Shown here piece after piece: positions 15,327 through 40,520 of a DNA stretch of 46,373 nucleotides (positions are counted from its first letter, which is position 1; every line of letters begins with the position of its first letter). The position numbers and the translations under genes are program-made. Source of the DNA: an uncultured Clostridia bacterium (GTDB lineage: Bacteria; Bacillota; Clostridia; Christensenellales; Aristaeellaceae); contig CAMHSI010000007.1 in assembly GCA_946187775.1 (NCBI GenBank), positions 1-46,373 of the forward strand, given 5' to 3'. The notes under the pieces are model-generated. The model was not told where the DNA came from. It ran no database searches and saw only the letters and a program-made list of their open reading frames with translations.

Positions 15327-16451
15327 ATGGAAAAAGCGAAAGTGGTATTCACGGATTTCCGGACGAAGCTGGACGTGAGCCAGGGAACGAAGCTGCAGAA
15401 CCTGTGCCGGAAGGCCGGCATGGACAAAATCGACTTTGAGGGAAAGTTCGTGGCCCTGAAGGTGCACTTCGGCGAGCTGGGGAACTTTGCCTATATCCGG
15501 CCCAACTACATCAAGGCGGTGGCGGACCTGGTCAAGAGCCTGGGCGGGAAGCCCTTCCTGACGGACTGCAACACGCTGTATGTCGGATCCCGGAAGAACG
15601 CGGTGGACCACCTGCTGAACGCGGATATCAACGGATTCAACTACATGACCACCGGATGCCACAACATCATCGCCGACGGGCTGAAGGGCACGGACGAGGT
15701 GACGGTGCCGGTGCCCAACGGCGAATACTGCAAGGAAGCGCATATCGGCCGGGCCCTGTACGACGCGGACGTGATCATCGTGATCAGCCATGTGAAGGGG
15801 CATGAGGTCGCCGGCTTCGGCGGCGCCATCAAGAACCTGGGCATGGGCGGCGGCAGCCGGGCCGGAAAGATGCAGCAGCACAACGACGGCAAGCCCATGG
15901 TGGACCCGGACCTGTGCCGGAACTGCAAGCGGTGCGGGAAGGAATGCGGAAGCGACGCCATCTCCTATGAAACGGGGAAGGCCGTGATCCATGAGGACCT
16001 CTGCAAGGGCTGCGGCAGGTGCATCGGCGCCTGCGCCTTTGACGCCATCTACACCGCCTTTGACACGGTTTCCGAAATGCTGGGACGGAAAATGGCAGAA
16101 TACGCGGCGGCCATCGCCCAGGGAAAACCGGTGTTCTACGTCAGCCTGATCATGGACGTTTCGCCGGACTGCGACTGCCACGGGGAGAACGACGCCCCCA
16201 TCCTGCCGGATATCGGCATGCTGGCTTCCTTCGACCCGGTGGCCCTGGACCAGGCCAGCGCGGACCTGTGCATGGCGGCGAAGCCCCTGCCGGGAACGCA
16301 GCTGACGGAGCACCTGGAAGAGGCGGAGAAACACCACCACCAGCACGATCCCTTCAAGACCGTGCATCCCACCACCAGCTGGCCGGAGTGCCTCGAGCAC
16401 GCCGAGAAGATCGGCCTGGGAACAAGGGAATATGAACTGATCCGGATGTAA
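15327..16451 (+). CDS. DUF362 protein with two [4Fe-4S] clusters
   Basis: Predicted 374 residues. Residues 1-185 and the C-terminal part form the DUF362 domain (KVHFGELGNFAYIRP, VISHVKGHEVAGFGGAIKNLGMGGG). Between them is a two-cluster ferredoxin module, CRNCKRCGKECG and CKGCGRCIGACAFDAI. Proteins of this design are common in clostridia as presumed electron carriers, but no reaction is established. The ATG at 15327 follows AGAGGAGAAC. A His-rich patch (EKHHHQHDPF) near the end could bind metal; that is inference. Confidence 0.85.
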   Translation: MEKAKVVFTDFRTKLDVSQGTKLQNLCRKAGMDKIDFEGKFVALKVHFGELGNFAYIRPNYIKAVADLVKSLGGKPFLTDCNTLYVGSRKNAVDHLLNADINGFNYMTTGCHNIIADGLKGTDEVTVPVPNGEYCKEAHIGRALYDADVIIVISHVKGHEVAGFGGAIKNLGMGGGSRAGKMQQHNDGKPMVDPDLCRNCKRCGKECGSDAISYETGKAVIHEDLCKGCGRCIGACAFDAIYTAFDTVSEMLGRKMAEYAAAIAQGKPVFYVSLIMDVSPDCDCHGENDAPILPDIGMLASFDPVALDQASADLCMAAKPLPGTQLTEHLEEAEKHHHQHDPFKTVHPTTSWPECLEHAEKIGLGTREYELIRM

Positions 16452-16477
16452 AAAGCGCATCCGGAGCCGGGCGCTTT
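16452..16477 (+). terminator. Weak terminator after the DUF362 gene
   Basis: A 7-bp stem AAAGCGC/GCGCTTT with a 12-base loop starting at the stop codon; no long T-run follows. Confidence 0.35.
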
Positions 16478-16481
16478 CCGA

Positions 16482-16510
16482 TTGACGCGGGAAGCGCTTT
16501 TCCTTATAAT
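16482..16510 (+). promoter_or_regulatory. Promoter of the dCMP deaminase gene
   Basis: TTGACG (16482-16487), 17 bases, perfect TATAAT (16505-16510), 38 bases ahead of the start codon. It may also drive the downstream DUF6062 and DRTGG genes. Confidence 0.8.
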
Positions 16511-16548: not shown

Positions 16549-17019
16549 ATGGATAAATGGGATGACCGTTTTATGCAAATGGCTTTCACCATCGCCGGAT
16601 GGTCCAGCTGTTTCCGGACCGGGCGGAGCATCGGCTGCGTCATCGTGAAGGATAAGCGCATCATGACCACCGGGTACAACGGCGCGCCGGCGGGCATCCG
16701 GACCTGCCGGGAAAAGGGAGAGTGCCTGCGGGACAAGCTGGGGATCGCCAGCGGCACCCGGATGGAGGCCTGCTACGCGGTGCACGCGGAGCAGAACGCC
16801 ATCGTGCAGGCGGCGAAGCTGGGCGTTTCCATTGACGGGGCGACCCTGTACTGCACGCACCAGCCCTGCTCCATGTGCGCGAAGATGATCATCAACAGCG
16901 GAATCAAGCGGGTGGTCTACCAGGTGGGCTATCCGGACGAATTCACCCTGGAGCTGTTTGACGAGGCGAAGGTGAAGCTGGAGCGGTACACGGCGCCGGC
17001 GGCCGGGAGGACAGATTGA
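16549..17019 (+). CDS. dCMP/deoxycytidylate deaminase (ComEB-like)
   Basis: Predicted 156-residue zinc enzyme that deaminates dCMP to dUMP for thymidylate synthesis. The zinc site is visible as HAEQNA (His79, catalytic Glu81) and PCSMCAK (Cys107, Cys110). An additional Cys-rich insert, TCREKGECL near residues 52-60, is usual for the two-zinc dCMP deaminases. Length is normal. RBS AGAGGGG precedes the ATG. The stop overlaps the next gene's TTG start, suggesting coupled translation. Confidence 0.9.
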   Translation: MDKWDDRFMQMAFTIAGWSSCFRTGRSIGCVIVKDKRIMTTGYNGAPAGIRTCREKGECLRDKLGIASGTRMEACYAVHAEQNAIVQAAKLGVSIDGATLYCTHQPCSMCAKMIINSGIKRVVYQVGYPDEFTLELFDEAKVKLERYTAPAAGRTD

Positions 17020-17795
17020 GATACCATATTGATACGATCCCCGTATGGGACGCCGCGAAGCTGGACGGGGAGTGCCTGCTGTGCGCCCTGGAGCGGAAGA
17101 CGGAGCTGGGGGAGGCGGAGCGCTACCTCGGCGCCTCCGTTATGGAACCGGACACCCGGGTGCAGGTGAACACCAAGGGCTTCTGCCGGCATCACCATGC
17201 CATGCTCTACGGCATGAGCAACCGGCTGGGGCACGCCCTGATGCTGGAAAGCCACATGATTGAGACCCGGGAGCGGACGGAGAAGATCTTCAGGAAGCTG
17301 GACGGCGCGGCGGAGACCCTCAAGGGCATCGGCCTGGCGGGAAGGCTGGGCGGAAAGGCCAGGGGTGCGGAGGCCGCCGTGCGGGAAGGCGCCGCGGAGC
17401 TGGCGAAGATCACGGACAGCTGCCTCATGTGCGAAACCATTGAGGAGAACATGAGGCGGTACCTGCATACCTTCCTCCACCTGTACCAGAACGACAGCGA
17501 TTTCCGGAGCCGGTTTGCCTCCGGAAAGGGACTCTGCCTGCCCCACACGGGGCGGCTGCTGGAGGCCGCGGCGGAGGAGCTGGCCCCGAAGGAGCTGGGA
17601 GAGCTGGTGTCCGTGCTGACCCGGACGGAGAAGGCAAACCTGGACCGGATCCAGGAGGAGATCTCCTGGTTCATCAAAAAGTTCGACTACCGCTACGAGA
17701 AGGAATCCTGGGGAAACAGCAAGGACGCGGTGGAGCGGACGGTGAACAAGGTCCGGGGATGGTGCGTCGGGAAGGAACCGAACCCGGAGGAATAA
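17016..17795 (+). CDS. DUF6062 cysteine-rich protein
   Basis: Predicted 259 residues, cytoplasmic. It contains paired motifs suited to metal binding: CLLC near residue 22, CRHHHAMLYG near 58, CLMC near 138 and CLPHTGRLLE near 175. The two halves look like a duplicated CxxC...C(R/L)xH unit. This matches DUF6062, whose function is unknown. Translation starts at TTG, four bases inside the deaminase stop, with GGGAGG upstream; no later in-frame start keeps the first conserved residues. Confidence 0.75.
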   Translation: MRYHIDTIPVWDAAKLDGECLLCALERKTELGEAERYLGASVMEPDTRVQVNTKGFCRHHHAMLYGMSNRLGHALMLESHMIETRERTEKIFRKLDGAAETLKGIGLAGRLGGKARGAEAAVREGAAELAKITDSCLMCETIEENMRRYLHTFLHLYQNDSDFRSRFASGKGLCLPHTGRLLEAAAEELAPKELGELVSVLTRTEKANLDRIQEEISWFIKKFDYRYEKESWGNSKDAVERTVNKVRGWCVGKEPNPEE

Positions 17796-17846: not shown

Positions 17847-18218
17847 ATGACCATTCGGGAGGTTGTGAAGATCCTGGACGGAAAAGTGCTGGTGGGAGAG
17901 GAACGGCTGGATTCCCAGGTCAACACGGCCTGCGGTTCGGACCTGATGAGCGACGTGCTGGCCTTTGTGAAGGAAAAGGCGGTGCTGATCACGGGGCTGA
18001 TCAATCCCCACGTGGTGCGGACCAGCGAAATGCTGGACATTACCTGCATCGTGTTCTCCCGGGGAAAGATTCCCGGGGAGGAGATCCTGGAGATGGCGGA
18101 GGAAACGGGAATCACCGTGATTTCCACCCCGCTGACCACCTATACTGCCTGCGGGGAACTGTACCTGCACGGGCTGCCGGGTACGAAACCGAAGAAGCCC
18201 GTAACGGAAGGAGCGTAA
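17847..18218 (+). CDS. DRTGG-domain protein, first copy
   Basis: Predicted 123-residue single-domain protein of the DRTGG family (MTIREVVKILDGKVL at the start, ITVISTPLTTYTACGELY at the end), with the beta-alpha pattern of the ligand-binding DRTGG fold. The ATG at 17847 has GAGGAG upstream. DRTGG domains occur beside CBS domains and phosphotransacetylases, and as stand-alone genes beside clostridial hydrogenases. A small-molecule sensing role is inferred. Only three bases separate it from the ATPase that follows. Confidence 0.75.
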   Translation: MTIREVVKILDGKVLVGEERLDSQVNTACGSDLMSDVLAFVKEKAVLITGLINPHVVRTSEMLDITCIVFSRGKIPGEEILEMAEETGITVISTPLTTYTACGELYLHGLPGTKPKKPVTEGA

Positions 18219-18221
18219 GGG

Positions 18222-18650
18222 ATGGCTGTGATTCTGGAAAGGAGCTTTCCGGTGGAAGCGGGGGCCTTTACCACCGCCGGGGAAGCTTCCACGACCATCA
18301 AACGGACGCTGAAGCAGCTGGGGGTGGACGCGGAGGTGCTGCGGCACGTTTCCGTGGCCTGCTACGAGGTGGAGCTGAACCTGGTGATTCACTCCCTGGG
18401 CGGGACCCTGACGCTGCTGGTGGATCCGGAGAAGGTTACACTGATTTCCAAAGACGTGGGTCCCGGGATTCCGGACATCGCCAAGGCGATGACGGAAGGA
18501 TTTTCCACGGCCAGCGACGAGGCGCGGACCCTGGGGTTCGGCGCGGGCATGGGACTGCCCAACATGAAACGCAACGCCACGGAATTTGACATCCAGAGCA
18601 CCGTGGGGGTCGGAACGACGATCACCATGACCTTCGCCCTGGGAAAATGA
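18222..18650 (+). CDS. Anti-sigma-factor-type HATPase (RsbW/SpoIIAB-like)
   Basis: Predicted 142-residue stand-alone GHKL ATPase. N-box region CYEVELNLVIHS, G1 box KDVGPGIPD and G2 box GFGAGMGLPNMK are present, with VGVGTTITMTF at the end. It has no histidine phosphoacceptor domain, so it resembles serine kinases/anti-sigma factors of the RsbW class. In this position, between DRTGG and an H-cluster-domain protein, it could relay a redox signal by protein phosphorylation or sequestration. That role is inferred; no sigma factor or antagonist gene is nearby. Confidence 0.75.
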   Translation: MAVILERSFPVEAGAFTTAGEASTTIKRTLKQLGVDAEVLRHVSVACYEVELNLVIHSLGGTLTLLVDPEKVTLISKDVGPGIPDIAKAMTEGFSTASDEARTLGFGAGMGLPNMKRNATEFDIQSTVGVGTTITMTFALGK

Positions 18651-18673
18651 GCGGCGTACAGAGGTAAGGGGTT

Positions 18674-19969
18674 ATGAACGATAAACGGTTCCATTCAGTC
18701 CGCCTGGAGGGGGACAAGTGCAGGGGCTGCACCAACTGCCTGAAGCGCTGTCCCACGGAGGCAATCCGGGTCCGGGGCGGACGGGCACATATCATTGATG
18801 AGCGCTGCATCGACTGCGGGGAATGCATCCGGGTGTGCGGATACCACGCGAAGGTGGCGGTGACGGACCCGCTGAGCTCCATCTCCGGATACAAGTATAA
18901 AATCGCCCTGCCGGCGCCCAGCCTCTACGGCCAGTTCAACAACCTGAAGAGCATTTCCCAGGTGCTGGGCGGGCTGAAGCGGATGGGCTTCGACGATGTG
19001 TTTGAGGTGGCCCGGGGAGCGGACGTGGTGAGCAAGGCCATCCGGGAGCGGCTGAAGGATCCCAAGCTTCCCCGGCCGGTGATTTCCTCCGCCTGCCCGG
19101 CCATCGTGCGGCTGATCCAGGTGCGGTTCCCGGACCTGATCGACCACATTGTGGACGTGCGGCAGCCCATGGAGGTGGCGGCCATGATCGCCCGGACGGA
19201 GTTCGCCCGGAAGAACGGGGTGGATCCCTCGGAGATCGGCTGCTTCTTCATTACCCCCTGCCCGGCCAAGGTGACGGCCATCCGCAATCCCATCGGCCAC
19301 GAGAAGAGCGCCGTCAACGGCGCCATCTCCGTGCTGGAGATCTACGGGCTCCTGTCCAGCCAGCTGAAGACTACCCCGGTGGACCTGACGCTGGAGGACG
19401 CCTCCGACCTGGGAGTGGGCTGGGCCCGCAGCGGCGGGGAATGCAACGCCGTGAGCCCGGATGACTCCATGGCGGTGGACGGCATTGAGAACTGCATCCG
19501 GGTGCTGGAGGAAATCGAGGACAACCGGCTGAAGGGGCTGGAGTTCTTCGAGGGCGCCGCCTGCACCGGCGGCTGCGTGGGCGGTCCCCTGAACTTTGAG
19601 AACAACTATGTGGCCCGGTCGGAGATCCGGAAGCTGTCCAGCCGGGACGAGAACCCGCAGCTGAACGTGGACAGCGGGATGATGAACGAATGCGACCTGT
19701 ACATGAGCGGACGCATCCTGCCCAACTCCGCCATGAAGCTGGATGACGACCTGATGGAAGCCATGCGGAAGATGGAGCGGATCGAGAAGCTGTATGACGA
19801 GCTGCCGGGATTCGACTGCGGCAGCTGCGGCAGCCCCACCTGCAGGACCTTTGCGGAGGACGTGGTCCAGGGCGCGGCAACCCGGCTGGACTGCATCCAC
19901 CTGATGAAGGACCAGCTGCGGGTGATGGCGGAGCAGATGGTGGACCTGGCGAAAACCACGAGAGAATAG
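18674..19969 (+). CDS. [FeFe]-hydrogenase-domain protein with altered L1 motif, likely sensory
   Basis: Predicted 431 residues. It has two [4Fe-4S] motifs (Cys16/19/22/26 and Cys45/48/51/55), then a hydrogenase large-subunit domain, then a further [4Fe-4S] module with Cys382, 385, 390 and 407 (DCGSCGSPTCRTFAEDV). H-cluster loops are recognisable but altered: L1 is SSACPA (Cys141) instead of TSCCPxW, L2 is TPCPAK (Cys196), and L3 is AACTGGCVGG (Cys297, Cys301). The four cysteines that would hold the [4Fe-4S] subcluster remain, but the proton-relay cysteine of L1 is Ala. There is no PAS domain. By family knowledge this resembles non-catalytic or sensory group C/D proteins. It probably reports redox or H2 state to the neighbouring ATPase. 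Confidence 0.8.
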   Translation: MNDKRFHSVRLEGDKCRGCTNCLKRCPTEAIRVRGGRAHIIDERCIDCGECIRVCGYHAKVAVTDPLSSISGYKYKIALPAPSLYGQFNNLKSISQVLGGLKRMGFDDVFEVARGADVVSKAIRERLKDPKLPRPVISSACPAIVRLIQVRFPDLIDHIVDVRQPMEVAAMIARTEFARKNGVDPSEIGCFFITPCPAKVTAIRNPIGHEKSAVNGAISVLEIYGLLSSQLKTTPVDLTLEDASDLGVGWARSGGECNAVSPDDSMAVDGIENCIRVLEEIEDNRLKGLEFFEGAACTGGCVGGPLNFENNYVARSEIRKLSSRDENPQLNVDSGMMNECDLYMSGRILPNSAMKLDDDLMEAMRKMERIEKLYDELPGFDCGSCGSPTCRTFAEDVVQGAATRLDCIHLMKDQLRVMAEQMVDLAKTTRE

Positions 19970-19986
19970 AAACGGGAGGAACGGAC

Positions 19987-20328
19987 ATGACGGTACGGGA
20001 CGTGATGGAACTGATTGAGGCGGCGGATATCACGCCGGAAACGGATAAAAGCCGGGAGGTTTCCTGCGGATACACCTGCGACCTGCTGAGCTGGGTGATG
20101 GCCCACGGCGCGGAGGGAATGGCCTGGGTGACGGTGCAGACCCACATGAACGTCATCGCGGTGGCCAGCCTGATGGAAATGAGCGCCGTGATCATCCCCG
20201 AGGGGATCGAGATGGAGGAGCCCTCGGTGGAGAAGGCGAAGGAAGAGGGCATCACCGTGCTGCAGAGCCCGCTGACGGCGTATGAGATCTGCGCCAGGCT
20301 TGCGGCAAAGGGACTGAAGGGAAAATAA
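19987..20328 (+). CDS. DRTGG-domain protein, second copy
   Basis: Predicted 113 residues with MTVRDVMELIEAADI at the start and ITVLQSPLTAYEICARL at the end. It is clearly a diverged relative of the 17847-18218 product: both share the pattern ITV(I/L)(S/Q)(T/S)PLT(T/A)Y near the C-terminus. The pair flanks the HATPase and H-cluster-domain genes, which suggests two ligand-sensing subunits for one complex. RBS GGGAGG precedes the ATG. Confidence 0.75.
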   Translation: MTVRDVMELIEAADITPETDKSREVSCGYTCDLLSWVMAHGAEGMAWVTVQTHMNVIAVASLMEMSAVIIPEGIEMEEPSVEKAKEEGITVLQSPLTAYEICARLAAKGLKGK

Positions 20329-20364
20329 GAAGGCGGAAAACCGAAGGAAGGAGGCTGAGGCGGC

Positions 20365-21069
20365 ATGTTTGTGGACCTGCATATGCATTCCTGCCTGAGC
20401 CCCTGTGCGGATGACGACATGACGCCGGCGAACATCTGCGGCATGGCGCACATCAAAGGCCTGCAGGCCATCGCCGTGACAGACCACAATACAGCCCGTA
20501 ACCTGCCTTACGTGAAGGAGGCGGCGGATTACTACGGGCTGATTTTACTGCCCGGAATGGAGATCACCACGAAGGAGGAGGTACACCTGCTGGGGTACTT
20601 CCGGGACGTGGAGACGGCGGTGGAAGTGGGGGAGATCTTTACGGGGCACCTGCCGAAGATGAAGAACAAGCCCGACTATTTCGGGAACCAGTACGTCATG
20701 AATACGGATGACGAGGTGGTGGACATCGAGGAGCGGATGCTCATCGGCGCCACGGACCTGGACCTTTCGGAGTGCACACAGATCATCCGGGACCACGGGG
20801 GCGCGGCGGTGCCGGCCCACATCAACCGGGGCCACGGGCTGCTGGTGAACCTGGGCCTGTTTCCGGAGGAGCCGTATTTCCCGGTGTGCGAGGTGCGGCC
20901 GGAGATCCCGGTGAACGACAAGCTGGTGGGAAACCGGCTGCGGCTGCGGTCCTCCGACGCCCACCACCTGGGGGATATCCTGGAGGCGGTGTTCGACCTG
21001 GAGACGGATCGGTTTTCCCTGGGGGGACTCTTCGACACGTTAGCCGGAACTAACCTTAAATCTTTGTAA
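20365..21069 (+). CDS. PHP-domain metal-dependent phosphoesterase
   Basis: Predicted 234 residues. Metal ligands typical of PHP domains are visible: DLHMHSCLSPC at the N-terminus, VTDHNTARN, PGMEITT, VPAHINRGHG and SSDAHH near the end. The family hydrolyses phosphoesters, including nucleotides and histidinol phosphate. The short length and context suggest a stand-alone phosphoesterase rather than a histidinol phosphatase. It is the last gene before the hydrogenase promoter and has RBS GGAAGGAGG. Confidence 0.8.
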   Translation: MFVDLHMHSCLSPCADDDMTPANICGMAHIKGLQAIAVTDHNTARNLPYVKEAADYYGLILLPGMEITTKEEVHLLGYFRDVETAVEVGEIFTGHLPKMKNKPDYFGNQYVMNTDDEVVDIEERMLIGATDLDLSECTQIIRDHGGAAVPAHINRGHGLLVNLGLFPEEPYFPVCEVRPEIPVNDKLVGNRLRLRSSDAHHLGDILEAVFDLETDRFSLGGLFDTLAGTNLKSL

Positions 21070-21085
21070 AACAAGGGAAAAACAC

Positions 21086-21114
21086 TTTTCAGAGAAGAAA
21101 AAATATGGTATCCT
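21086..21114 (+). promoter_or_regulatory. Promoter of the hydrogenase operon
   Basis: TTTTCA (21086-21091), 17 bases, TATCCT (21109-21114) preceded by TGG, an extended -10. The start codon is 70 bases downstream, leaving a leader with a hairpin. Confidence 0.45.
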
Positions 21115-21133
21115 TATAAATCGTGAAAAGGGA

Positions 21134-21152
21134 CTTTTGCCGCGTGCAAAAG
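21134..21152 (+). promoter_or_regulatory. Leader hairpin of the hydrogenase operon
   Basis: A 7-bp stem CTTTTGC/GCAAAAG with loop CGCGT lies between the promoter and the AAGGAGG ribosome binding site. It has no T-run, so it is more likely a stability or regulatory element than a terminator. Confidence 0.4.
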
Positions 21153-21183
21153 GTTCGAAATACATAAGGAGGTCAAGGACGGT

Positions 21184-21654
21184 ATGCCTGACAACAAGGA
21201 AAAATACGCAAAGCTGCAGGAGGTTATCGAGAAGCGCAAAGGCGAGCGCGGCGCGGTGATGCCCTGCCTGCAGGAAGCCATGAACATCTTCGGCTATGTG
21301 CCGCAGGACGTTCAGGAGATGATCGCGGACGGACTGGGCGTGACCCTTTCCGAAGTGTACGGCGTCTCCACCTTCTACTCCCAGTTCTCCCTCAAGCCCA
21401 AGGGAGAGCACGTGATCGGCGTGTGCCTGGGCACTGCCTGCTACGTCAAGGGCAGCCAGAAGATTATTGACAGGCTTTCCGAAGAGCTGAAGATCCAGCC
21501 CGGCGACACCACGGAAGACGGGAAGTTCACCCTGAACGCCACCCGCTGCCTGGGCGCCTGCGGCCTGGCCCCCGTTATGATGATCGGCGAGGAAGTCTAC
21601 GGCCGGCTGACTCCGGATCAGGTACCCGGAATCCTGGACAAGTACCGTGCGTGA
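21184..21654 (+). CDS. hydC: Hydrogenase subunit HydC (NuoE-like)
   Basis: Predicted 156-residue [2Fe-2S] subunit of a trimeric NADH/ferredoxin-dependent [FeFe] hydrogenase. Cluster ligands are Cys81 and Cys86 (VCLGTACYVKG) and Cys122 and Cys126 (RCLGACGLAPV), the NuoE/24-kDa pattern. Family knowledge places it as the electron-transfer partner of HydB. It is the first gene of the operon, has a strong AAGGAGG site, and overlaps the GTG start of the next gene by eight bases. Confidence 0.92.
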   Translation: MPDNKEKYAKLQEVIEKRKGERGAVMPCLQEAMNIFGYVPQDVQEMIADGLGVTLSEVYGVSTFYSQFSLKPKGEHVIGVCLGTACYVKGSQKIIDRLSEELKIQPGDTTEDGKFTLNATRCLGACGLAPVMMIGEEVYGRLTPDQVPGILDKYRA

Positions 21655-22204
21655 CCTGAGCCTGCACCTGCTGGACCTGGCGCAGAACAGCATCACCGCC
21701 GGCGCAAAGCTGGTGACGGTGCGGCTGACGCTGGAGGAAAACGGCATGCTGACGATGCAGCTGGAGGATGACGGGAAAGGGATGAGCCCGGAACTGCTCC
21801 AGCGCGTGACCAGCCCCTTCGCCACCACCCGGACCACCCGCAAGGTTGGCCTGGGTATTCCCATGATGAAGGAGAACGCCGAGAAGGCGGGAGGAACCTT
21901 CACCCTGGAGAGCGAGGAAGGGAAGGGCACGGTGCTTACCGCGTCCATGGACACGAAGAACATCGACTGCCTGCCCCCGGGGGACCTGAGCGGGACGATG
22001 CTGAGCCTGATGCTGACGAATCCCCTTTCCCCGGATTTCCGGATCGAGAGCAAAAGCCCCAAGGGGGAGAGCGTTTTCGACACCCGGGAGGTCCGGGCGG
22101 CCCTGGGCAGCGACATCCCATTCAATGAGCCTTCCGTAGCCGCCTGGCTGAAGGAAGCGCTGGACGAGGAAATGAATACAATCTTTGGAGGTGTTTGGAT
22201 ATGA
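21647..22204 (+). CDS. HATPase-domain protein inside the hydrogenase operon
   Basis: Predicted 185 residues. A GHKL ATP-binding domain spans about residues 1-110: LHLLDLAQNSITAGA (N box), LEDDGKGMSPE (G1), TTRKVGLGIPMMKENAE (G2) and GKGTVLTASM. The remaining ~75 residues are a small domain I do not recognise. No dimerisation/phosphoacceptor helix is present. Start is GTG at 21647, inside the end of hydC. A homologous gene order occurs in other clostridial hydrogenase operons, as I recall, but its role is unresolved; it may phosphorylate or modulate a hydrogenase partner. Confidence 0.75.
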   Translation: MRDLSLHLLDLAQNSITAGAKLVTVRLTLEENGMLTMQLEDDGKGMSPELLQRVTSPFATTRTTRKVGLGIPMMKENAEKAGGTFTLESEEGKGTVLTASMDTKNIDCLPPGDLSGTMLSLMLTNPLSPDFRIESKSPKGESVFDTREVRAALGSDIPFNEPSVAAWLKEALDEEMNTIFGGVWI

Positions 22205-22569
22205 AATCTTTGGCAGACCTGGAAGCCATCCGCGCAAGAACGCTGGAAAACATCAACATGCGGAAGGATGAGAACGCGGCCCGCGTTGTCATCGGCATGG
22301 CCACCTGCGGCATCGCTGCCGGCGCCCGCCCCGTGATGCTTGCTTTTATGGATGAAATCAAGAAGCGGAACCTGCAGCACGTGACCGTGAGCCAGACCGG
22401 ATGCATCGGCATGTGCCGCTACGAGCCCATGCTGGACGTGATCCTGCCCGGGAAGGAAAAGGTAACCTACATCCACGTGAAGCCTGAAATGGTACCGCGC
22501 ATTGTTACCGAGCACATTGTGAACGGACGTCCGGTGGAAGAATACACCATCGGCGCCGCGAAAGACTGA
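22201..22569 (+). CDS. Thioredoxin-like [2Fe-2S] ferredoxin
   Basis: Predicted 122 residues. ATCGIAAGARPVM (Cys36) and TGCIGMCRYEP (Cys68, Cys72) fit a thioredoxin-fold [2Fe-2S] protein. The usual fourth ligand position after Cys36 is not a cysteine, which I believe is common in this small family. The ATG at 22201 is used because GGAGG lies about 12 bases before it. It lies between the HATPase gene and hydB and probably docks near HydB or HydC. Whether it carries a stable cluster is uncertain. Confidence 0.8.
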   Translation: MKSLADLEAIRARTLENINMRKDENAARVVIGMATCGIAAGARPVMLAFMDEIKKRNLQHVTVSQTGCIGMCRYEPMLDVILPGKEKVTYIHVKPEMVPRIVTEHIVNGRPVEEYTIGAAKD

Positions 22570-22588
22570 TTAGAGGAGGAAAACCCAG

Positions 22589-24385
22589 ATGGAGCTTTAT
22601 CGTTCTCATGTACTGGTCTGCGGCGGCACCGGCTGTACATCATCCGGATCCGCGAAGCTGATTGAGCGCTTCGAGAATCAGCTGGCGGAAAAGGGCCTTG
22701 ACAAGGAAGTCAAGGTAGTCCGCACGGGCTGCTTCGGCCTTTGCGAAGCGGGCCCCGTTGTGATCGTTTACCCCGAAGGAACCTTCTACAGCCGCGTCAA
22801 GGTTGAAGACGTGGACGAGATCGTTTCCGAGCACCTGCTGAAGGGCCGCCGGGTGCAGCGGCTGGTGTACGTGGACCACAAGACCCACGAGTCCAGCGTG
22901 CAGAAGAGCCTTTCCGAGATCGGCTTCTACAAGAAGCAGCATCGCGTTGCCCTGCGGAACTGCGGCGTGATCGATCCCGAGAATATCGACGAGTACATCG
23001 CCTTCGACGGCTACAAGGCCCTGGCGAAGGCCCTGACGGAAATGACCCCGGAGCAGGTTATCCAGGAAGTGCTGGATTCCGGCCTGCGGGGCCGCGGCGG
23101 CGCGGGATTCCCCACCGGCAAGAAGTGGCAGTTTGCCAGGGCCAGCCAGGCGGAGCATAAATACTTCGTCTGCAACGCCGACGAGGGCGACCCCGGCGCG
23201 TTCATGGACCGCTCCCTGCTGGAAGGCGATCCCCACGCGATCCTGGAAGCCATGGCCATCGGCGGATACGCCATCGGGGCGGACGAAGGCTGGATCTACG
23301 TCCGTGCCGAGTACCCCATCGCCGTGAAGCGGCTGGAGCGGGCCATTGAGCAGGCACATGAGTACGGCCTGCTGGGCAAGAACATCTTCGGCACCGACTT
23401 CAGCTTCGACATCCATATCCGCCTGGGCGCCGGCGCCTTCGTGTGCGGCGAGGAAACCGCCCTGATGGCCTCCATCGAAGGCAAGCGCGGCGAGCCCCGG
23501 CCGAAGCCCCCGTTCCCGGCGGTGAAGGGCCTGTTCGAGAGCCCCACCAACATCAATAACGTGGAAACCCTGGGCAACATCGCCCAGATCATCCTGAAGG
23601 GTTCCGCCTGGTTCCGCTCCATCGGTACCGAGCGCAGCCCCGGTACGAAGGTCTTCGCCCTGGGCGGCAAGATCAACAACACCGGCCTGGTGGAAGTCCC
23701 CATGGGCATTCCGCTGCGGACCATCATCGAGGACATCGGCGGCGGCTGCCCCAACGGCAAGAAGTTCAAGGCCGTGCAGACCGGCGGTCCTTCCGGCGGA
23801 TGCATCCCGGCCAGCCTGCTGGACACCCCCGTGGAATATGACACCCTGACCGCCATCGGCGCCATGATGGGTTCCGGCGGTATGATCGTCATGGACGAAG
23901 ACAACTGTATGGTGGACATCGCCCGCTTCTTCCTGGACTTCACCGTGGACGAGAGCTGCGGCAAGTGCACCCCCTGCCGGATCGGTACCCGCCGGATGCT
24001 GGAGATCCTCGAGCGGATCACCCAGGGCAAGGGCGAGGAAGGCGACATCGAGAAGCTGCAGGAGCTGGCCGAGAGCATCAAGAGCAGCGCCCTGTGCGGC
24101 CTGGGCCAGACGGCTCCGAACCCCGTGCTTTCCACCATCAAGTACTTCCGGGATGAGTATGAAGCCCACATCCGGGAGAAGCGGTGCCCGGCGCATCACT
24201 GCCAGGCCCTGCTGAACTATGAGATCACCGATGCCTGCCGCGGCTGCACCGCCTGCGCCCGGAAGTGCCCCGTCAATGCCATCACCGGCACTGTGAAGGA
24301 GCGCCACGTGATCGATCAGTCCAAGTGCATCAAGTGCGGATCTTGCATGGCAACCTGTAAGTTCGGCGCTATCGTGAAGAAGTAA
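22589..24385 (+). CDS. hydB: Hydrogenase subunit HydB (NuoF-like, NAD- and FMN-binding)
   Basis: Predicted 598-residue flavoprotein subunit. Domains in order: a thioredoxin-like [2Fe-2S] unit (Cys11, 16, 48, 52); the NuoF FMN/NAD core with GRGGAGFPTG (168-177) and CNADEGDPGAFMDR; a SLBB region; a [4Fe-4S] site ESCGKCTPC (Cys457, 460, 463) with a later ALCGLGQ cysteine; and a C-terminal double ferredoxin (CRGCTACARKCP, CIKCGSCMATCKF). This is the HydB layout of bifurcating hydrogenases, where the flavin takes electrons from NADH while ferredoxin supplies the rest. AGAGGAGGAAAA precedes the ATG. Confidence 0.95.
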   Translation: MELYRSHVLVCGGTGCTSSGSAKLIERFENQLAEKGLDKEVKVVRTGCFGLCEAGPVVIVYPEGTFYSRVKVEDVDEIVSEHLLKGRRVQRLVYVDHKTHESSVQKSLSEIGFYKKQHRVALRNCGVIDPENIDEYIAFDGYKALAKALTEMTPEQVIQEVLDSGLRGRGGAGFPTGKKWQFARASQAEHKYFVCNADEGDPGAFMDRSLLEGDPHAILEAMAIGGYAIGADEGWIYVRAEYPIAVKRLERAIEQAHEYGLLGKNIFGTDFSFDIHIRLGAGAFVCGEETALMASIEGKRGEPRPKPPFPAVKGLFESPTNINNVETLGNIAQIILKGSAWFRSIGTERSPGTKVFALGGKINNTGLVEVPMGIPLRTIIEDIGGGCPNGKKFKAVQTGGPSGGCIPASLLDTPVEYDTLTAIGAMMGSGGMIVMDEDNCMVDIARFFLDFTVDESCGKCTPCRIGTRRMLEILERITQGKGEEGDIEKLQELAESIKSSALCGLGQTAPNPVLSTIKYFRDEYEAHIREKRCPAHHCQALLNYEITDACRGCTACARKCPVNAITGTVKERHVIDQSKCIKCGSCMATCKFGAIVKK

Positions 24386-24408
24386 TCGTGCGAGGAGGAA
24401 CAACACAA

Positions 24409-26157
24409 ATGGAAAATCTCGTTAAGCTTACGATTGACGGCGTCAGTGTTGAAGTCCCCGCCGGCACGACGGTTCTCGAAGCCGCAAAGAAGGCTGGCAT
24501 CAACATCCCCACGCTGTGCTACCTGAAGGATATCAACCAGATCGGCGCCTGCCGCATGTGTATCGTGGACACCGGTGCCCGCGCTTTCGGCGCGGCCTGC
24601 GTGCTGCCCGTGGCCAACGGCATGAACGTCAAGACCAATACCCCCAAGCTCCGGGAAGCCCGCCGGGTGAACCTGGAACTGCTGCTGAGCAACCATGACA
24701 AGCGGTGCCTGGACTGCGCCCGCAACCAGAAGTGCGAACTGCAGCAGATGTGTATCGACCTGGGCGTCGAGGACGTGGACCGCTTCAAGGGCAAGATGAA
24801 CGAATATGACATCGACGACCTGAGCCCCTCCATCGTCCGGAACAACAACAAGTGCATCCTGTGCCGCCGCTGCGTGGCCGCCTGCAACAACACGCAGGCC
24901 GTCGGCGTCATCGGCCCCATGGGACGCGGCTTCAAGACCCAGATCCGCAGCGCCTGGGACCAGCCCCTGAACGACGTGGCCTGCATCAACTGCGGCCAGT
25001 GTATCGCGGCTTGCCCCACCGGCGCCCTGTATGAGAAGGATTCCACCAAGGCGGTCTGGGACCTGCTGGCGGACGAGACCAAGCATGTGGTCGTGCAGCC
25101 CGCTCCCGCGGTCCGCGCCGCCCTGGGCGAAGAGTTCGGCATGCCCATGGGCACCTCCGTTACCGGAAAGCTGGCCGCCGCGCTGCGCCGCCTGGGCTTC
25201 GAAAAGGTGTTCGACACCGACTGGGGCGCCGACCTGACCATCATGGAGGAAGGCACCGAGTTCATCGGCCGGCTGAAGAACAACGGCACGCTGCCCATGA
25301 TCACCAGCTGTTCTCCCGGATGGATCAAGTTCTGCGAAACCTACTATCCGGACTTCATCGACAACCTGTCCAGCTGCAAGTCTCCCCACGAGATGGAAGG
25401 CGCCATGATCAAGAGCTACTGGGCGGAGAAGGAAGGCATCGATCCCAAGGATATCCGCGTGGTGTCCGTGATGCCCTGCACCGCCAAGAAGTTTGAAGCG
25501 AAGCGTCCCGAGCTGGGCCATGACGGCATGCAGGATGTGGACGAGGTTATCACCACCCGCGAGCTGGCCCGCATGATCAAGGAAGCCGGTATCGACTTCG
25601 TGAACCTGCCGGACGAGGACTTCGATCCCGTCCTGGGCGAGAGCACCGGCGCGGCCGTTATCTTCGGCGTCACCGGCGGCGTGATGGAAGCGGCCCTGCG
25701 TACCGTGTACGAAAAGGTGACCGGCGAGACCCTGGAGAATGTTGATTTCACCGCGGTCCGCGGCATCGAGGGCGTCAAGGAAGCCACCGTCAAGGTGGGC
25801 GACCTGGATGTGAACGTGGCGGTTGCCCACGGAACGGCCAACGCCGCGAAGCTGCTGGACAGCATCCGCAGCGGCGAGAAGACCTACCACTTCATCGAGG
25901 TCATGGGATGCCCCGGCGGCTGCGTTACCGGCGGCGGACAGCCCATCGTTTCCGCACAGAAGCGGATGGAATGCGATCCCAAGCAGCTGCGCGCCGCGGC
26001 CCTCTACAACGAGGACGCCAACAAGCCGGAGCGCAAGAGCCACGAGAACCCCTCCATCATGGCCGTGTACAGGGATTTCCTGGGAGAGCCCAACAGCCAC
26101 CTGGCCCACGAGCTCCTGCACACCCACTACACCAAGCGGCCGAAGTACACCAAGTAA
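24409..26157 (+). CDS. hydA: [FeFe] hydrogenase catalytic subunit HydA
   Basis: Predicted 582 residues. N-terminal [2Fe-2S] domain (Cys37, 48, 51, 64), His-Cys3 cluster site (His96, Cys100, 103, 109), double [4Fe-4S] ferredoxin (Cys149-159 and Cys192-202), then the H-cluster domain and a C-terminal small-subunit region (NPSIMAVYRDFLGEP). Catalytic loops: L1 ITSCSPGW (Cys301), L2 MPCTAKKFE (Cys357), L3 EVMGCPGGCVTGGGQP (Cys501, 505). L1 has Ser302 where the textbook motif TSCCPxW has a second Cys; I recall this form in other clostridial trimeric enzymes. It makes H2 from NADH plus reduced ferredoxin with HydB and HydC. ATG at 24409 follows GAGGAGG. Maturation genes hydEFG are not in the window. 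Confidence 0.95.
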   Translation: MENLVKLTIDGVSVEVPAGTTVLEAAKKAGINIPTLCYLKDINQIGACRMCIVDTGARAFGAACVLPVANGMNVKTNTPKLREARRVNLELLLSNHDKRCLDCARNQKCELQQMCIDLGVEDVDRFKGKMNEYDIDDLSPSIVRNNNKCILCRRCVAACNNTQAVGVIGPMGRGFKTQIRSAWDQPLNDVACINCGQCIAACPTGALYEKDSTKAVWDLLADETKHVVVQPAPAVRAALGEEFGMPMGTSVTGKLAAALRRLGFEKVFDTDWGADLTIMEEGTEFIGRLKNNGTLPMITSCSPGWIKFCETYYPDFIDNLSSCKSPHEMEGAMIKSYWAEKEGIDPKDIRVVSVMPCTAKKFEAKRPELGHDGMQDVDEVITTRELARMIKEAGIDFVNLPDEDFDPVLGESTGAAVIFGVTGGVMEAALRTVYEKVTGETLENVDFTAVRGIEGVKEATVKVGDLDVNVAVAHGTANAAKLLDSIRSGEKTYHFIEVMGCPGGCVTGGGQPIVSAQKRMECDPKQLRAAALYNEDANKPERKSHENPSIMAVYRDFLGEPNSHLAHELLHTHYTKRPKYTK

Positions 26158-26170
26158 TATCGGAAACCTG

Positions 26171-26204
26171 TCCGCCGGGCATCCGTGCCCGGCGGATTTT
26201 TTTT
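26171..26204 (+). terminator. Terminator of the hydrogenase operon
   Basis: A perfect 10-bp stem TCCGCCGGGC/GCCCGGCGGA with loop ATCCGT followed by eight T's, 13 bases after the hydA stop. Confidence 0.9.
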
Positions 26205-26276: not shown

Positions 26277-27077
26277 ATGATTCAGGAAGTCAGGATCAGC
26301 ACGGTGGAGGATCTGATGCCGCTGTTGAGCGAGCAGGAATACCGGCCCGAGCTGGGACGGAACCGGAGCAGCTACCTGTACCGGGGAATGCCGGACGCGT
26401 CCTTCCGGATGCAGACCAGCCTGGCCCGGTGCTGCAAGGGGCTGCAGCGAACTCTGGAGCCCGCGATCCTGAACAACTTTGCCAAGTACGCCGTCCGGGA
26501 GGATCCCACGGTGACCCACAGCGTCTGGTTCCGGATGATCACCGGGCAGCACAACGGCCTGCCCACCCGGCTCCTGGACTGGAGCCATTCTGCCCTGGTG
26601 GCGCTGCACTTCGCCATGACGGAGAACCAGCTCGAAAAAATGGACGCCCGGGACTGCGTGGTGTGGCGGATCGACATGAACGAGCAGATGAGCCACCTGC
26701 CGGAGAAGTACCGGCTGGCGGTGGGCCGGGAGCAGACCAGCCTCTTCTCCGTGGAGATGCTGGGCAAGCTGGCCCCGACCCTGGAGCGGTATGATGAGGA
26801 CATGGGGGATCATTCCATGGTCATCGTAGAGCCGCCCAGCACCAACAACCGGATCATCATGCAGTATTCCTTCTTCTCCGTGGTTCCCATGGGGATTACG
26901 GACCTGGAGAAATTCCTGGATAACTACACGGACCATACGGTCAAGTACATCATCGACCGGAAGCTGCGCTGGCGGGTGCGGGACATGCTGGATTCCCTGA
27001 ACATCAGCGAGCGGCTGTTTTTCCCGGGGCTCGACGGGCTGAGCAAATGGATCGCCCGGCACTATTATGTCAAATAA
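26277..27077 (+). CDS. FRG-domain protein
   Basis: Predicted 266 residues. The FRG domain is marked by YLYRGMPDASF near residues 33-43 and GQHNGLPTRLLDWSHSALVA (about 87-106), the F/Y-RG-Q and LLDWT-like motifs of the family. FRG proteins are often found in accessory or defence-associated loci, but their biochemistry is little known. The ATG follows GGAGGGAAACC. It is followed 19 bases later by the CotH gene. Role unknown; no toxin or antitoxin partner is evident. Confidence 0.8.
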   Translation: MIQEVRISTVEDLMPLLSEQEYRPELGRNRSSYLYRGMPDASFRMQTSLARCCKGLQRTLEPAILNNFAKYAVREDPTVTHSVWFRMITGQHNGLPTRLLDWSHSALVALHFAMTENQLEKMDARDCVVWRIDMNEQMSHLPEKYRLAVGREQTSLFSVEMLGKLAPTLERYDEDMGDHSMVIVEPPSTNNRIIMQYSFFSVVPMGITDLEKFLDNYTDHTVKYIIDRKLRWRVRDMLDSLNISERLFFPGLDGLSKWIARHYYVK

Positions 27078-27096
27078 GCAGAAAGGGGGAGGGCGG

Positions 27097-29082
27097 ATGA
27101 GACAGTTCCTGAAGCGGGCAATACTGCCGATGCTCCTGCTTTTGCTGCTTCCCCTGGTTTCCGCCGGGGCGGACGTGTACATCAATGAGGTCATGGCCAG
27201 CAACGGCTTCTACGAAAACGGGGAGGCCTACGACTGGATTGAGCTGTACAACGACGGGAAAAAGACCGTGGACCTGGGCGGATGGTACCTGAGCGACAGC
27301 AAGAAAAACCCGCTGAAGTGGAGCTTCCCCGAAGGAGCGAAGATCAAGGCCGGCGGGTACGTGACGGTCTTCTGCACCGGGGAGGAGGACCATACCCCCG
27401 GAAAAGGGGACACCTTCTATACCGGCTATTCCATCTCTGCCTCCGGGGAGACCTTGATCCTCTCCGACGCGGAGGGGACGGAAAAACAGCGGGTGAAGCT
27501 GCCGGAGCAGTACGGATGCGTCAGCTGGGGAAGGCCCCTTAATGGCGGTGACTTTGGTTTCTTCGAGAACCCCACCCGGGGAAAGAAGAACGACGCCGAG
27601 GCGTATCCCGCCCGGACGGCGGCCCCGGTGCTGACCGTGGAGGGCGGCTTTTACACCGGCAGCGTCACGGTGGGGGCCACAGGCCCGGAAGGGGCGGTGC
27701 TCCGCTACACCACCGACGGTGAAACGCCCACGGCGAAAAGCAGGCAGTTTCCCGCGGAAGGGCTGACGGTCACCAAGACCACGCCCCTGCGGGTCCGGGC
27801 CTTCCGGGAGGGGGAGGTTCCCTCCGCCGCGGAGAGCGCCACCTATTTCATCGATGACAACCCGCAGACGGCCATCGTCTCCCTGATTTCCGACGACAAA
27901 TACCTTTTCAACAGGAAAACCGGCATGCTGGTGAAGGGCACGGGTTCCATCCCCAACTACAGCAAGGGATTCGAGTACCCGGTGCACATCGAGTACTTCA
28001 ACGCCGAGGGCAGCCGGGAGATCAGCCAGACGGGCACCATGACCTGCTCCGGCCACAGCGCCCGGGTCAACGCCCAGAAGAGCATCGCCCTCTACGCCCG
28101 CAAGTCCTGGGGAGCGGACCGGTTCCGCTTCAATCCTTTTCCCACCCGGGATTACACGGAATACAAGAGCCTGCTGCTGCGGGCGGCCAACAGCGACACC
28201 TACGCCACCCGGCTGCGGGACGTGGTGGCCAGCTCCCTGGCGGAGGGGCAGGGGATCCTGTACCAGGACCACGTGGTGATCCAGGTGTACATCAACGGAA
28301 GATACTGGGGGCACTACAACCTCCGGGAGAAGATCAACAAGTACTTCGTGGCGGCCTATGAGGGCGTGACGGAGGAGGCGGACATCGACCGGATCGACAT
28401 CCTGGCCCGGACGGGGCGGGATGAGTTCCTCCAGAACGGGGACAACACGGACTGGCTGGCCCTGTGCGATTTCTGCAAGAAGAACAGCCTCAGCGACCCG
28501 GAGAACCTGAAGCGGGTGGAGGAGGAGCTGGACATCGACAACATGTTTACCCACGCGGCGTACGAGATCATCCTGGGGAACGTGGACTTCACCAACGTCC
28601 GGCTGTACCGGGTGCCCGGGGGAAAATGGAAGTACCTGCTCTTCGACGTGGAGGCCTGCTGGCGGGGACTGGACAAGACGCCCATTGAGTATTACATCAA
28701 ACCGGTGAACGCGAAGATCAACGGATTCCGCCATGAGCCCCTGAACGCCCTGCTGGCGCTGCCGGAATACAAGGCGAAGTTCCTGAACCGGGTCAGCGAG
28801 CTGCTGGCCACGGTATTCCGCTGGGACAACGTGGAAGCCCACTTCGACCGGGTGATCGCGCAGCTGGAGCCCATCCTGCCGCGGCATATCAGCCGGTGGA
28901 AGAACATGAAGATAGAAAACTGGCGCAAGAATATCAGCGCCACGAAGTATTACGCCCGGGTGCGCCCGAAGGAGATTCCCAAGCTGCTGAAGAAGGCTAT
29001 GAAGCTGACGGACGCGGAGGTGGAGGAGTACTTCGGGGAGACCCTGCGGCTGCTGGAGGAAACCAACAAGCCGGAGGAGTAA
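27097..29082 (+). CDS. Secreted CotH-family protein kinase with lamin-tail domain
   Basis: Predicted 661 residues with a signal peptide (basic MRQFLKR, then a leucine-rich core, cleavage near VSAGA). Next comes a lamin-tail domain (YINEVMASNG, WIELYNDG, DLGGWYLSD; residues ~27-150), then a chitobiase-type beta-sandwich (LRYTTDGETPT, ~175-255). Last is a CotH kinase domain (~270-600; YINGRYWGHYNLREKIN, LYRVPGGKWKYLLFDVEACW). CotH in Bacillus phosphorylates spore-coat proteins; secreted versions in anaerobes are less understood. The ATG at 27097 is supported by GAAAGGGGGA, over an in-frame ATG 30 bases earlier that overlaps the previous gene. Confidence 0.85.
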   Translation: MRQFLKRAILPMLLLLLLPLVSAGADVYINEVMASNGFYENGEAYDWIELYNDGKKTVDLGGWYLSDSKKNPLKWSFPEGAKIKAGGYVTVFCTGEEDHTPGKGDTFYTGYSISASGETLILSDAEGTEKQRVKLPEQYGCVSWGRPLNGGDFGFFENPTRGKKNDAEAYPARTAAPVLTVEGGFYTGSVTVGATGPEGAVLRYTTDGETPTAKSRQFPAEGLTVTKTTPLRVRAFREGEVPSAAESATYFIDDNPQTAIVSLISDDKYLFNRKTGMLVKGTGSIPNYSKGFEYPVHIEYFNAEGSREISQTGTMTCSGHSARVNAQKSIALYARKSWGADRFRFNPFPTRDYTEYKSLLLRAANSDTYATRLRDVVASSLAEGQGILYQDHVVIQVYINGRYWGHYNLREKINKYFVAAYEGVTEEADIDRIDILARTGRDEFLQNGDNTDWLALCDFCKKNSLSDPENLKRVEEELDIDNMFTHAAYEIILGNVDFTNVRLYRVPGGKWKYLLFDVEACWRGLDKTPIEYYIKPVNAKINGFRHEPLNALLALPEYKAKFLNRVSELLATVFRWDNVEAHFDRVIAQLEPILPRHISRWKNMKIENWRKNISATKYYARVRPKEIPKLLKKAMKLTDAEVEEYFGETLRLLEETNKPEE

Positions 29083-38347: not shown

Positions 38348-38528
38348 AGCAAAAGATACATGGATTTTCAGAAACACGAACAAACAAATAATTTTTGTTA
38401 CATCGTTCGGAAATACCATATCAAACAAATAATTGGAAACAAATAGCAGCAACAAGGCACAAACGCAAGGAATATCAATGTTTCAGGCAATTCAGCATAA
38501 AAAGAATCCTTAAAAAGATGCACAAACT

Positions 38529-38544
38529 GGTAAATTGATTTACC
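38529..38544. promoter_or_regulatory. Palindromic operator candidate
   Basis: GGTAAATTGATTTACC is an inverted repeat with 7-bp arms GGTAAAT/ATTTACC. It ends two bases before the predicted -35 box of the surface locus, a position suited to an activator or repressor. The regulator is unknown. Confidence 0.5.
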
Positions 38545-38546
38545 TA

Positions 38547-38575
38547 TTGAATACAACTCGCAAAAATGGTATATT
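38547..38575 (+). promoter_or_regulatory. Promoter of the surface-protein locus
   Basis: TTGAAT (38547-38552), 17 bases, TATATT (38570-38575) preceded by TGG as an extended -10. The leader to the start codon is about 125 bases. Confidence 0.6.
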
Positions 38576-38703
38576 ATGTGTGGTTTAGTCTACCTGTTTG
38601 GAGACAGGCGGACACGTGCTCAAACCCATACATGTAATTCTTATGTAACTAATAAACCAAATGTTACAGAACAAATCCAGCAAGGGCAAAGGGGTAAGGT
38701 AAA

Positions 38704-40464: not shown

Positions 40465-40520
40465 GACCTGAAGGATCAAAACCTGACCAACGCAAATCCG
40501 AACCTTAGGACAAAGGGGTT

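Follow-up and report, generated by a model that had tools for sequence, protein, structure and literature searches.

Main

A row of ten genes in an uncultured Clostridia bacterium (positions 17847–26157 of contig CAMHSI010000007.1, assembly GCA_946187775.1) includes what appears to be a regulatory unit for the enzymes balancing H2, ferredoxin and NADH, in which a probable H2-sensing hydrogenase, HydS, would be coupled to a switch ATPase of the anti-sigma type, HATP1. The genes stand in the order DRTGG1, HATP1, HydS, DRTGG2, PHP, hydC, HATP2, hydD, hydB and hydA, where the DRTGG proteins are two paralogues named after their domain, PHP is a metallo-phosphoesterase, HATP2 is a second ATPase and HydABC is a trimeric hydrogenase. 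Throughout, the window is the whole stretch of DNA that was analysed, 46,373 nucleotides from an assembly of 1.89 Mb that is 64% complete. We read the row as an H2 or redox signalling module that would work in the style of a partner switch, with HydS (for H2) and/or CBS domains (for adenylates) acting on a kinase-type ATPase, and give this reading a probability of roughly 0.47. It draws on the presence, order and co-occurrence of the genes, on natural fusions, on an exchange of sensors, on intact catalytic-type residues and on the predicted fold class of the ATPase.

Group D (M2e) [FeFe]-hydrogenases are marked by two N-terminal [4Fe-4S] motifs, a C-terminal Cx2Cx4Cx16C motif and the lack of a PAS domain, they have lost the proton-transfer Cys and have Ser/Thr in place of M353, and the type has already been proposed as an H2 sensor encoded upstream of HydABC (Land 2020, PMC8163306). 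For all Thermoanaerobacter strains, genes for a histidine kinase and for a hydrogenase resembling group D have also been described ahead of the A1 genes (Verbeke 2013, PMC3608648). That HydS is linked with a HATPase and HydABC had thus been published before, and the core linkage is not new. What is new here is the conserved five-gene order, the co-occurrence of HydS with HATP1, the natural fusions, a variant of HATP1 with CBS domains and the recurrent Rex, Rnf and formate dehydrogenase neighbours; no paper connecting DRTGG or PHP with group D hydrogenases was found in the literature, searched chiefly by title and abstract. The way in which group D hydrogenases, which have no PAS domain, pass on a signal has been posed in the literature as an open question (‘how signal transduction is achieved’; Land 2020, PMC8163306). 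The fusion of HATP1 to HydS and their tight co-occurrence name a signalling partner for HydS, and the single-chain fusions are reagents for a test.

Conserved order and co-occurrence

The phylum-wide sample comprised 299 genomes, in which HydS was counted at 187 bits or more, full or partial, giving 120 genomes; seven genomes with all HydS matches at 160 bits or less were set aside. From 99 of the 120 we drew 100 neighbourhoods, which came down to 86 usable loci after removal of two with a broken or partial HydS (L128, L129) and 12 with short flanks. The named loci are the 80 best-scoring and hence biased, and 55 of them were usable once 25 with short flanks had been dropped. Counts over 179 loci refer to 181 loci less L128 and L129 and are not independent, given three duplicate sample loci.

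The exact order DRTGG-HATP1-HydS-DRTGG-PHP, on one strand, was found in 71 of the 86 usable sample loci. The other 15 comprise five without the first DRTGG gene in the counted span, four with HATP1-HydS alone, three without PHP, two with HydS-DRTGG and one with HATP1-HydS-DRTGG. Among the usable named loci 48 of 55 had the exact order; L169 and L199, scored as not exact, differ just by the sorting of overlapping frames. Gene-neighbourhood comparison, which the initial annotation had proposed as a check on its signalling hypothesis, therefore upholds the linkage, with a conserved gene order, co-occurring genes and fusions between neighbours.

Group D HydS is present in 120, HATP1 in 126 and PHP in 116 of the 299 genomes. 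HydS and HATP1 occur together in 119, HydS only in one (G166), HATP1 only in seven and neither in 172 (Jaccard 0.94). In G166, the sole HydS genome without HATP1, one of the HydS copies sits at the end of a contig and the other has no ATPase genes beside it. For HydS and PHP the corresponding numbers are 112, eight (HydS only), four (PHP only) and 175, and for HydS and an A6 HydA over cut-off 109, 11 (HydS only), 95 (HydA only) and 84 (Jaccard 0.51). Fisher p-values for such tables take no account of relatedness among the genomes. HydS is thus tied far more closely to HATP1 (0.94) than to A6 HydA (0.51), and because order and co-occurrence are conserved across genomes the grouping is beyond chance.

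The initial annotation had placed the module directly before and inside a bifurcating hydrogenase operon, which is correct for the window and does not hold as a rule, given that HydA, B and C are all missing from the stretch in 22 of the 117 loci with at least 7 kb on both sides. A mere appendage of HydABC was rejected as an account of the module on this count and on the closer tracking of HATP1 by HydS.

Fusions, split modules and a CBS variant

HATP2 was found without HydA, B or C on the retrieved stretch in 8 of 180 loci and directly after PHP in several, so we read it as a sixth member of the module. Fusions cover every adjacent pair of the six members except DRTGG2-PHP. DRTGG1 is fused to HATP1 in 7 of the 100 sample loci and in Tepidanaerobacter (L175; Pfam-checked for L037 and L175), HydS to DRTGG2 in two (L048, L061), PHP to HATP2 in six, all of one family, and HATP2 to HydD in L060 only. 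The HATP1-HydS fusion, seen once at first (L121), was then found in 14 of 14 genomes examined of one family, from five genera (Pfam for L121 and L237), and an assembly error was rejected as its cause. In four genomes of another family, f82, HATP1-HydS stands alone and DRTGG1-DRTGG2-PHP-HATP2 lies elsewhere; paired away from the remaining module in this way, HATP1 and HydS move as a unit.

At seven loci in five genomes (G090, G117 twice, G150, G305 and G339 twice) HATP1 carries two N-terminal CBS domains and there is no group D HydS. Whole-assembly searches of these five genomes gave a best HydS match of 154 bits or less, or none (G090 is 85% complete), compared with at least 343 bits for nearly all full-length group D copies. 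CBS-HATP1 followed by HydS was seen in L116 and L233, with two CBS stretches each, and in L062, with one; with both carried at these three loci, CBS domains as a strict replacement of HydS were rejected. At L215 and L231, DRTGG1, CBS-HATP1 and a HydD-like [2Fe-2S] gene are followed by rnf-like genes (RnfC at L215 confirmed by Pfam), with no hydrogenase in the module. CBS pairs are commonly adenylate-binding. The CBS domains on HATP1 would act as an exchangeable sensor, so that the switch would read H2 and/or adenylates. Neither this variant nor the second HydS copies described below had been anticipated by the initial annotation. Domains of both kinds also occur together in the CBS-PPase (CBS and DRTGG), but the CBS-HATP1 modules have no pyrophosphatase domain and carry the CBS pair on the ATPase.

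Five loci of family f26 (L092, L104, L250, L251, L252) carry an additional copy of HydS with DRTGG-HydD-HydC-HydB-HydA behind it, and no HATP1, HATP2 or PHP was found there. The first HydS copy, seen for G018 and G191 (L083, L253), lies in the usual HATP1 module, and the second copy either shares the ATPase of the first or acts without one, on the enzyme directly. These copies without ATPase genes slightly weaken the signalling reading and strengthen an alternative at the enzyme level, in which HydS, DRTGG, HATP1 and HATP2 would attach to HydABC, Rnf or formate dehydrogenase as a regulatory or chaperone-like assembly complex and control either the passage of electrons or the insertion of clusters; where ATPases are present, the conformational cycle would be powered by ATP hydrolysis. 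HATP2 would suit such a complex, being encoded between HydC and HydD, joined to HydD in L060 and partly MutL-like. So would the loci L215 and L231, where DRTGG1, CBS-HATP1 and HydD directly precede the rnf genes, and the ten proteins of the row, in which Pfam found no DNA-binding domain. However, the Rex genes at 25 of 179 loci point to a transcriptional context, HATP1 is closest to anti-sigma kinases and not to chaperones, and 22 of 117 wide-flank loci have no hydABC gene on the stretch; we hold this alternative to be unlikely, if worth keeping in view.

HydS is a group D hydrogenase

Judged by the sequence criteria for the class, HydS is a group D (M2e) hydrogenase: it has two N-terminal [4Fe-4S] sites, an H-cluster site and a C-terminal Cx2Cx4Cx16C motif, and Pfam found no PAS domain in it. 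In an alignment of 41 sequences the H-cluster cysteines C141, C196, C297 and C301 are invariant (41/41), as are C382, C385, C390, C407 and eight N-terminal Cys. Because the cluster ligands are invariant HydS should bind an H-cluster, and a degenerate or dead enzyme was ruled out on the same ground. The altered catalytic loops that the initial annotation had pointed out are indeed there, with L1 reading SSACP, where Ala-140 takes the place of the group A proton-transfer Cys, and L2 reading TPC versus MPC in group A. Across the alignment position 140 is A in 22, S in 17, N in one and T in one sequence, and position 194, the M353 equivalent, is T in 24, S in 15 and A in two. The closest named HydS come from metagenome-assembled genomes of ruminant-gut Clostridia (80–87% identity), followed by Candidatus Limiplasma pullicola (69%).

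TamHydS of Thermoanaerobacter mathranii shares with the window HydS the Cx2Cx4Cx16C motif, Ala at the C299 position, the exchange of M353 for Ser/Thr, the alternative proton-path Glu pair, the position upstream of a trimeric HydABC and a HATPase neighbour (PMC8163306); DRTGG and PHP genes, fusions and a CBS variant are not described in the passages on TamHydS in that paper. Its residues E252, E289 and D265 and a conserved Asp near the C-terminal cluster ligands have been described (PMC13104023, PMC10407848). With the TamHydS residues taken from PMC8163306, PMC13104023 and PMC10407848 and the offset to HydS numbering deduced by us, the pair E252/E289 corresponds to E256 (40/41) and E293 (41/41) of HydS and D265 to position 269 (Asp in 34/41), and the Asp next to the C-terminal cluster ligands are D381 (41/41) and D406 (37/41). 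For TamHydS an H2-induced change in secondary structure is cited in PMC13104023, its C-terminal cluster is not reduced by H2 (PMC13104023) and its H2 affinity has been described (PMC13104023, PMC8163306). In T. wiegelii (L166) our profiles found hydS flanked by HATP1 and a DRTGG gene, and DRTGG is the sole Pfam domain of the first DRTGG protein at that locus, from which we infer that the gene labelled AraC at the T. mathranii locus encodes a DRTGG protein.

In a metabolic explanation HydS would be a working low-rate enzyme, PHP a nucleotide phosphatase and DRTGG adenylate-binding, their co-location reflecting a shared redox regulon. TamHydS does catalyse both directions (PMC8163306), the PHP and DRTGG families include metabolic members, and second HydS copies without an ATPase would fit. 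Group D enzymes are, however, slow and without the group A proton path (PMC8163306, PMC10407848), and fusions to a kinase-type ATPase together with the CBS replacement are hard to explain without signalling, which makes a purely metabolic role improbable.

An H-cluster domain also acts as sensor in group C sensory hydrogenases (PAS) and in fusions of hydrogenase with methyl-accepting chemotaxis protein (MCP), but in the two examples met here the transmitter is in the same chain, whereas the group D HydS is mostly a separate protein beside a SpoIIAB-type ATPase. One, L048:13403-15712, is a complete sensor of the group C type, a single chain that combines hydrogenase, FeS, PAS, HisKA and HATPase domains. 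It is encoded upstream of a group D module, and both sensor types thus lie close together in this genome. In the other, L036:6953-8866, an [FeFe]-hydrogenase domain is fused to a methyl-accepting chemotaxis domain (PF02906 and PF00015) directly after HATP1-HydS. A related hydrogenase-MCP open reading frame (ORF) follows HATP1-HydS at L057, where a CheW gene precedes HATP1, and H2 chemotaxis is a possible function of this arrangement.

Two ATPases of different kind

The initial annotation had taken both ATPases to be of the anti-sigma type, and this stands for HATP1, with its SpoIIAB/RsbW fold; HATP2 turned out histidine-kinase/MutL-like, at modest TM scores. The best Foldseek match of the HATP1 model (pLDDT 95.6) is SpoIIAB (TMq 0.78), followed by RsbW, ranks 1–7 are all SpoIIAB/RsbW (TMq 0.78 to 0.60), and a sequence search of PDB gave SpoIIAB alone. 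N-box residues Glu49 and Asn53 are kept in 173 of 174 aligned rows, the remaining row being a gap, and the G1 and G2 glycine boxes are conserved; in three translated CBS forms the N-box Glu/Asn and both glycine boxes are, by eye, also kept. By analogy with its structural relatives HATP1 is probably a serine kinase, and because it scores 46.8 bits against a curated cut-off of 135 for the spoIIAB equivalog it is not SpoIIAB itself.

The HATP2 model (pLDDT 89.4) matches MutL and histidine-kinase ATPase domains at TMq 0.35–0.52 among the 50 matches listed, with Asp10 at the place of the N-box Glu (by eye), and no phosphoacceptor domain was found in HATP2. The two ATPases are not equivalent, and it is HATP1 that goes with HydS. 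HydE of Acetobacterium woodii (Awo_c27000), named ‘Sensory transduction histidine kinase HydE’ in a table of PMC10472528, lies between HydC and HydD as HATP2 does, but HATP2 is also met in modules without HydA/B/C on the retrieved stretch.

Either ATPase might instead lend its domain to a histidine kinase encoded elsewhere. Family f82 has HATP1-HydS beside an OmpR regulator and a HisKA histidine kinase, with CheW or a hydrogenase-MCP protein at some loci, and HATP2 does resemble histidine-kinase ATPase domains. But the ten window proteins are without a HisKA or receiver domain (Pfam, E up to 0.01), as the initial annotation had argued in setting the locus apart from classical two-component systems, and the N-box of HATP1 is of the SpoIIAB type; we regard a two-component role as very improbable.

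DRTGG proteins and PHP

Of the two DRTGG domains named by the initial annotation, that of DRTGG1 is well over the Pfam gathering threshold (44.2 versus 25.2 bits). DRTGG2 falls below it (18.6 bits, E 0.0017) and is instead backed by a profile built from DRTGG1, which gave 182 DRTGG matches in 97 of 101 loci; its fused homologue in L048 reaches 30.0 bits in Pfam. The Ser of the D-x-x-S motif is invariant in both proteins (S50 in 161/161 DRTGG1 and S35 in 164/164 DRTGG2 sequences), and D47 of DRTGG1 is kept in 160 of 161. In AF_1212, the one outside DRTGG sequence that was aligned, Gln stands at the Ser position and Ser one place on. The metal ligands of PHP are similarly constant, with H6, H8, D40, H41, E66 and H74 in 154 of 154 sequences, H152 in 152 and D198 and H200 in 148, the remainder being gaps.

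A proposed partner-switch style mechanism and its limits

The SpoIIAB-SpoIIAA-SpoIIE and RsbW/RsbT switches share with the module the HATP1 fold and catalytic-type residues, and in both cases the genes for small partners and for a phosphoesterase accompany that of a kinase-type ATPase. In the scheme as generally described the partner is a STAS protein and the phosphatase a PP2C, whereas the module has DRTGG and PHP; it also differs in having no sigma factor and in its input, here a hydrogenase or CBS domains. Pfam found no STAS, PP2C or sigma factor in a search confined to the ten proteins of the row. The likeness is one of how the parts would work, by analogy.

On this model we propose contacts, a direction of signalling, phosphorylation, targets, an output and a specificity for PHP as follows. 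H2 would bind the H-cluster of HydS and change its conformation, by analogy with the H2 effect reported for TamHydS. HydS would signal to HATP1 by direct contact, as fusions and co-occurrence suggest, and shift its nucleotide state. HATP1 might then bind or phosphorylate the DRTGG proteins, whose invariant D-x-x-S would be a phosphorylation or docking site, and PHP might reset the mark on DRTGG; both of these steps are speculative. HATP2 (HydE), to judge from its neighbourhood and the one HATP2-HydD fusion, may serve as output or as an additional input and in this way connect the switch with ferredoxin/NAD(H) enzymes encoded next door, namely HydABC in the window and Rnf, a NuoEF-linked formate dehydrogenase or the Rex regulator in other genomes. 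The output would be gene control or direct gating of HydABC or Rnf, probably through HATP2.

The neighbours point to ferredoxin/NAD(H) balance and H2 sensing. Of 179 loci, 25 have a Rex gene on the same strand, at a distance that ranges from adjacency to DRTGG1 up to about 9 kb, 18 have RnfC, 14 formate dehydrogenase and 10 RseC (examples Pfam-checked). In L086 (3930-4481) and nine further loci, the gene for this RseC/MucC-like membrane protein comes immediately behind HATP2, and in several it precedes rex.

Several observations weigh against a switch of this kind, in addition to the second HydS copies of f26. Unlike SpoIIAB and RsbW, the ATPase of the module is without a STAS partner. PHP is absent from 8 of the 120 HydS genomes and DRTGG1 from some loci, so the set of kinase, substrate and phosphatase is not always complete, and 11 of the 120 have no A6 HydA over the cut-off (taken from E-values). 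Genomes G009, G036 and G159 have HATP1 and DRTGG without a group D HydS, and no CBS domain was found on HATP1 in G009 and G036, the two tested. No Rex site at up to three mismatches was found in the window, and direct Rex control of its operon was rejected. Gene order and fusion, moreover, give association and not the direction of signalling.

A wider proposal, tentative and rather doubtful as it stands, is that the module represents a new class of signalling system, a DRTGG-GHKL(SpoIIAB-type)-PHP switch with exchangeable sensors (HydS, CBS or both) that sets HydABC, Rnf and NAD-linked formate dehydrogenase, and in which DRTGG is a new kinase substrate in place of STAS. If true, a new class of switch would set the ferredoxin/NAD(H) machinery in a large share of the phylum (HydS and HATP1 in 119 of 299 genomes). 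Should the signalling reading itself be right, many clostridia of the gut, the rumen and digesters would control H2 by way of a sporulation-type ATPase switch.

The locus in the window

The ORF list of the window has the genes of 17847–26157 at the positions given by the initial annotation (Table 1), and the tight spacing that it described was confirmed, with gaps from DRTGG1 to hydA of 3, 23, 17, 36, 114, −8, −10, 19 and 2 bases, the largest (114) before hydC.

Table 1 Features of the hydS–hydABC locus, in window positions
Feature	Position	Strand	Basis or remark
Promoter-like site TTGACG-17-TATAAT	16482–16510	+	11/12 matches; before dCMP-deaminase gene
dCMP-deaminase-like gene, possible first of transcript	16549–17019	+	ORF; named by inspection of the sequence alone
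DUF6062 protein, local neighbour outside conserved module	17016–17795	+	PF19538 8.5e-82
DRTGG1, single-domain protein, D47-x-x-S50-D51 (numbering from GTG at 17802)	17847–18218	+	PF07085 1.8e-11
HATP1, SpoIIAB/RsbW-type ATPase, probable serine kinase or switch protein	18222–18650	+	HATPase_c 5.5e-09; model
HydS, group D (M2e) [FeFe]-hydrogenase, putative H2 sensor	18674–19969	+	Fe_hyd_lg_C 7.3e-36, FeS PF04060, ferredoxin domain
DRTGG2, paralogue of DRTGG1, D32-x-x-S35, T49 and N55 invariant	19987–20328	+	Weak Pfam; family profile
PHP-family metallo-phosphoesterase, complete metal-ligand set, invariant C14	20365–21069	+	PHP 9.6e-07
HydC, NuoE-type [2Fe-2S]	21184–21654	+	PF01257 7.5e-54
HATP2 (HydE of A. 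woodii by position), histidine-kinase/MutL-type ATPase domain and C-terminal part	21647–22204	+	HATPase_c 1.1e-16; model
HydD, thioredoxin-like [2Fe-2S] protein	22195–22569	+	Below-cut-off matches only: NF041612 3.4e-09, PF01257 0.0015
HydB, NuoF-type flavoprotein	22589–24385	+	Pfam, NCBIfam
HydA, group A6 NADH-dependent [FeFe]-hydrogenase	24388–26157	+	NF040763, 918 bits vs cut-off 765
Terminator-like stem and T7	26170–26197	+	After hydA

The signals in the DNA suggest a single 12-gene transcript from the dCMP-deaminase-like gene to hydA, given that a scan found no plus-strand terminator-like site between the promoter-like site and the stem after hydA; a weaker terminator-like site (16469–16499) overlaps the promoter-like site itself. 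The transcript is no more than suggested, because totals for the region lie near those of shuffled sequence (promoter-like 3 versus 1.8, terminator-like 8 versus 8.5). The first two genes are local to some relatives, with an ORF related to the dCMP-deaminase-like gene in 10 of 179 loci and one related to the DUF6062 gene in 12, the window counted in both.

Upstream of the operon lies a gene for a DUF362 protein with a ferredoxin domain (15327–16451). At the far end of the window (38000–46373) the GC content falls from about 0.6 to 0.43, so this part is possibly acquired DNA; an ORF of 586 amino acids there (38704–40464) has no Pfam match at 0.001. Directly behind the terminator-like stem, an FRG-domain protein (PF08867) is encoded at 26277–27077, a domain often met in phage-defence settings, and it is followed at 27067–29082 by a protein with a Lamin-tail domain and a CotH kinase domain.

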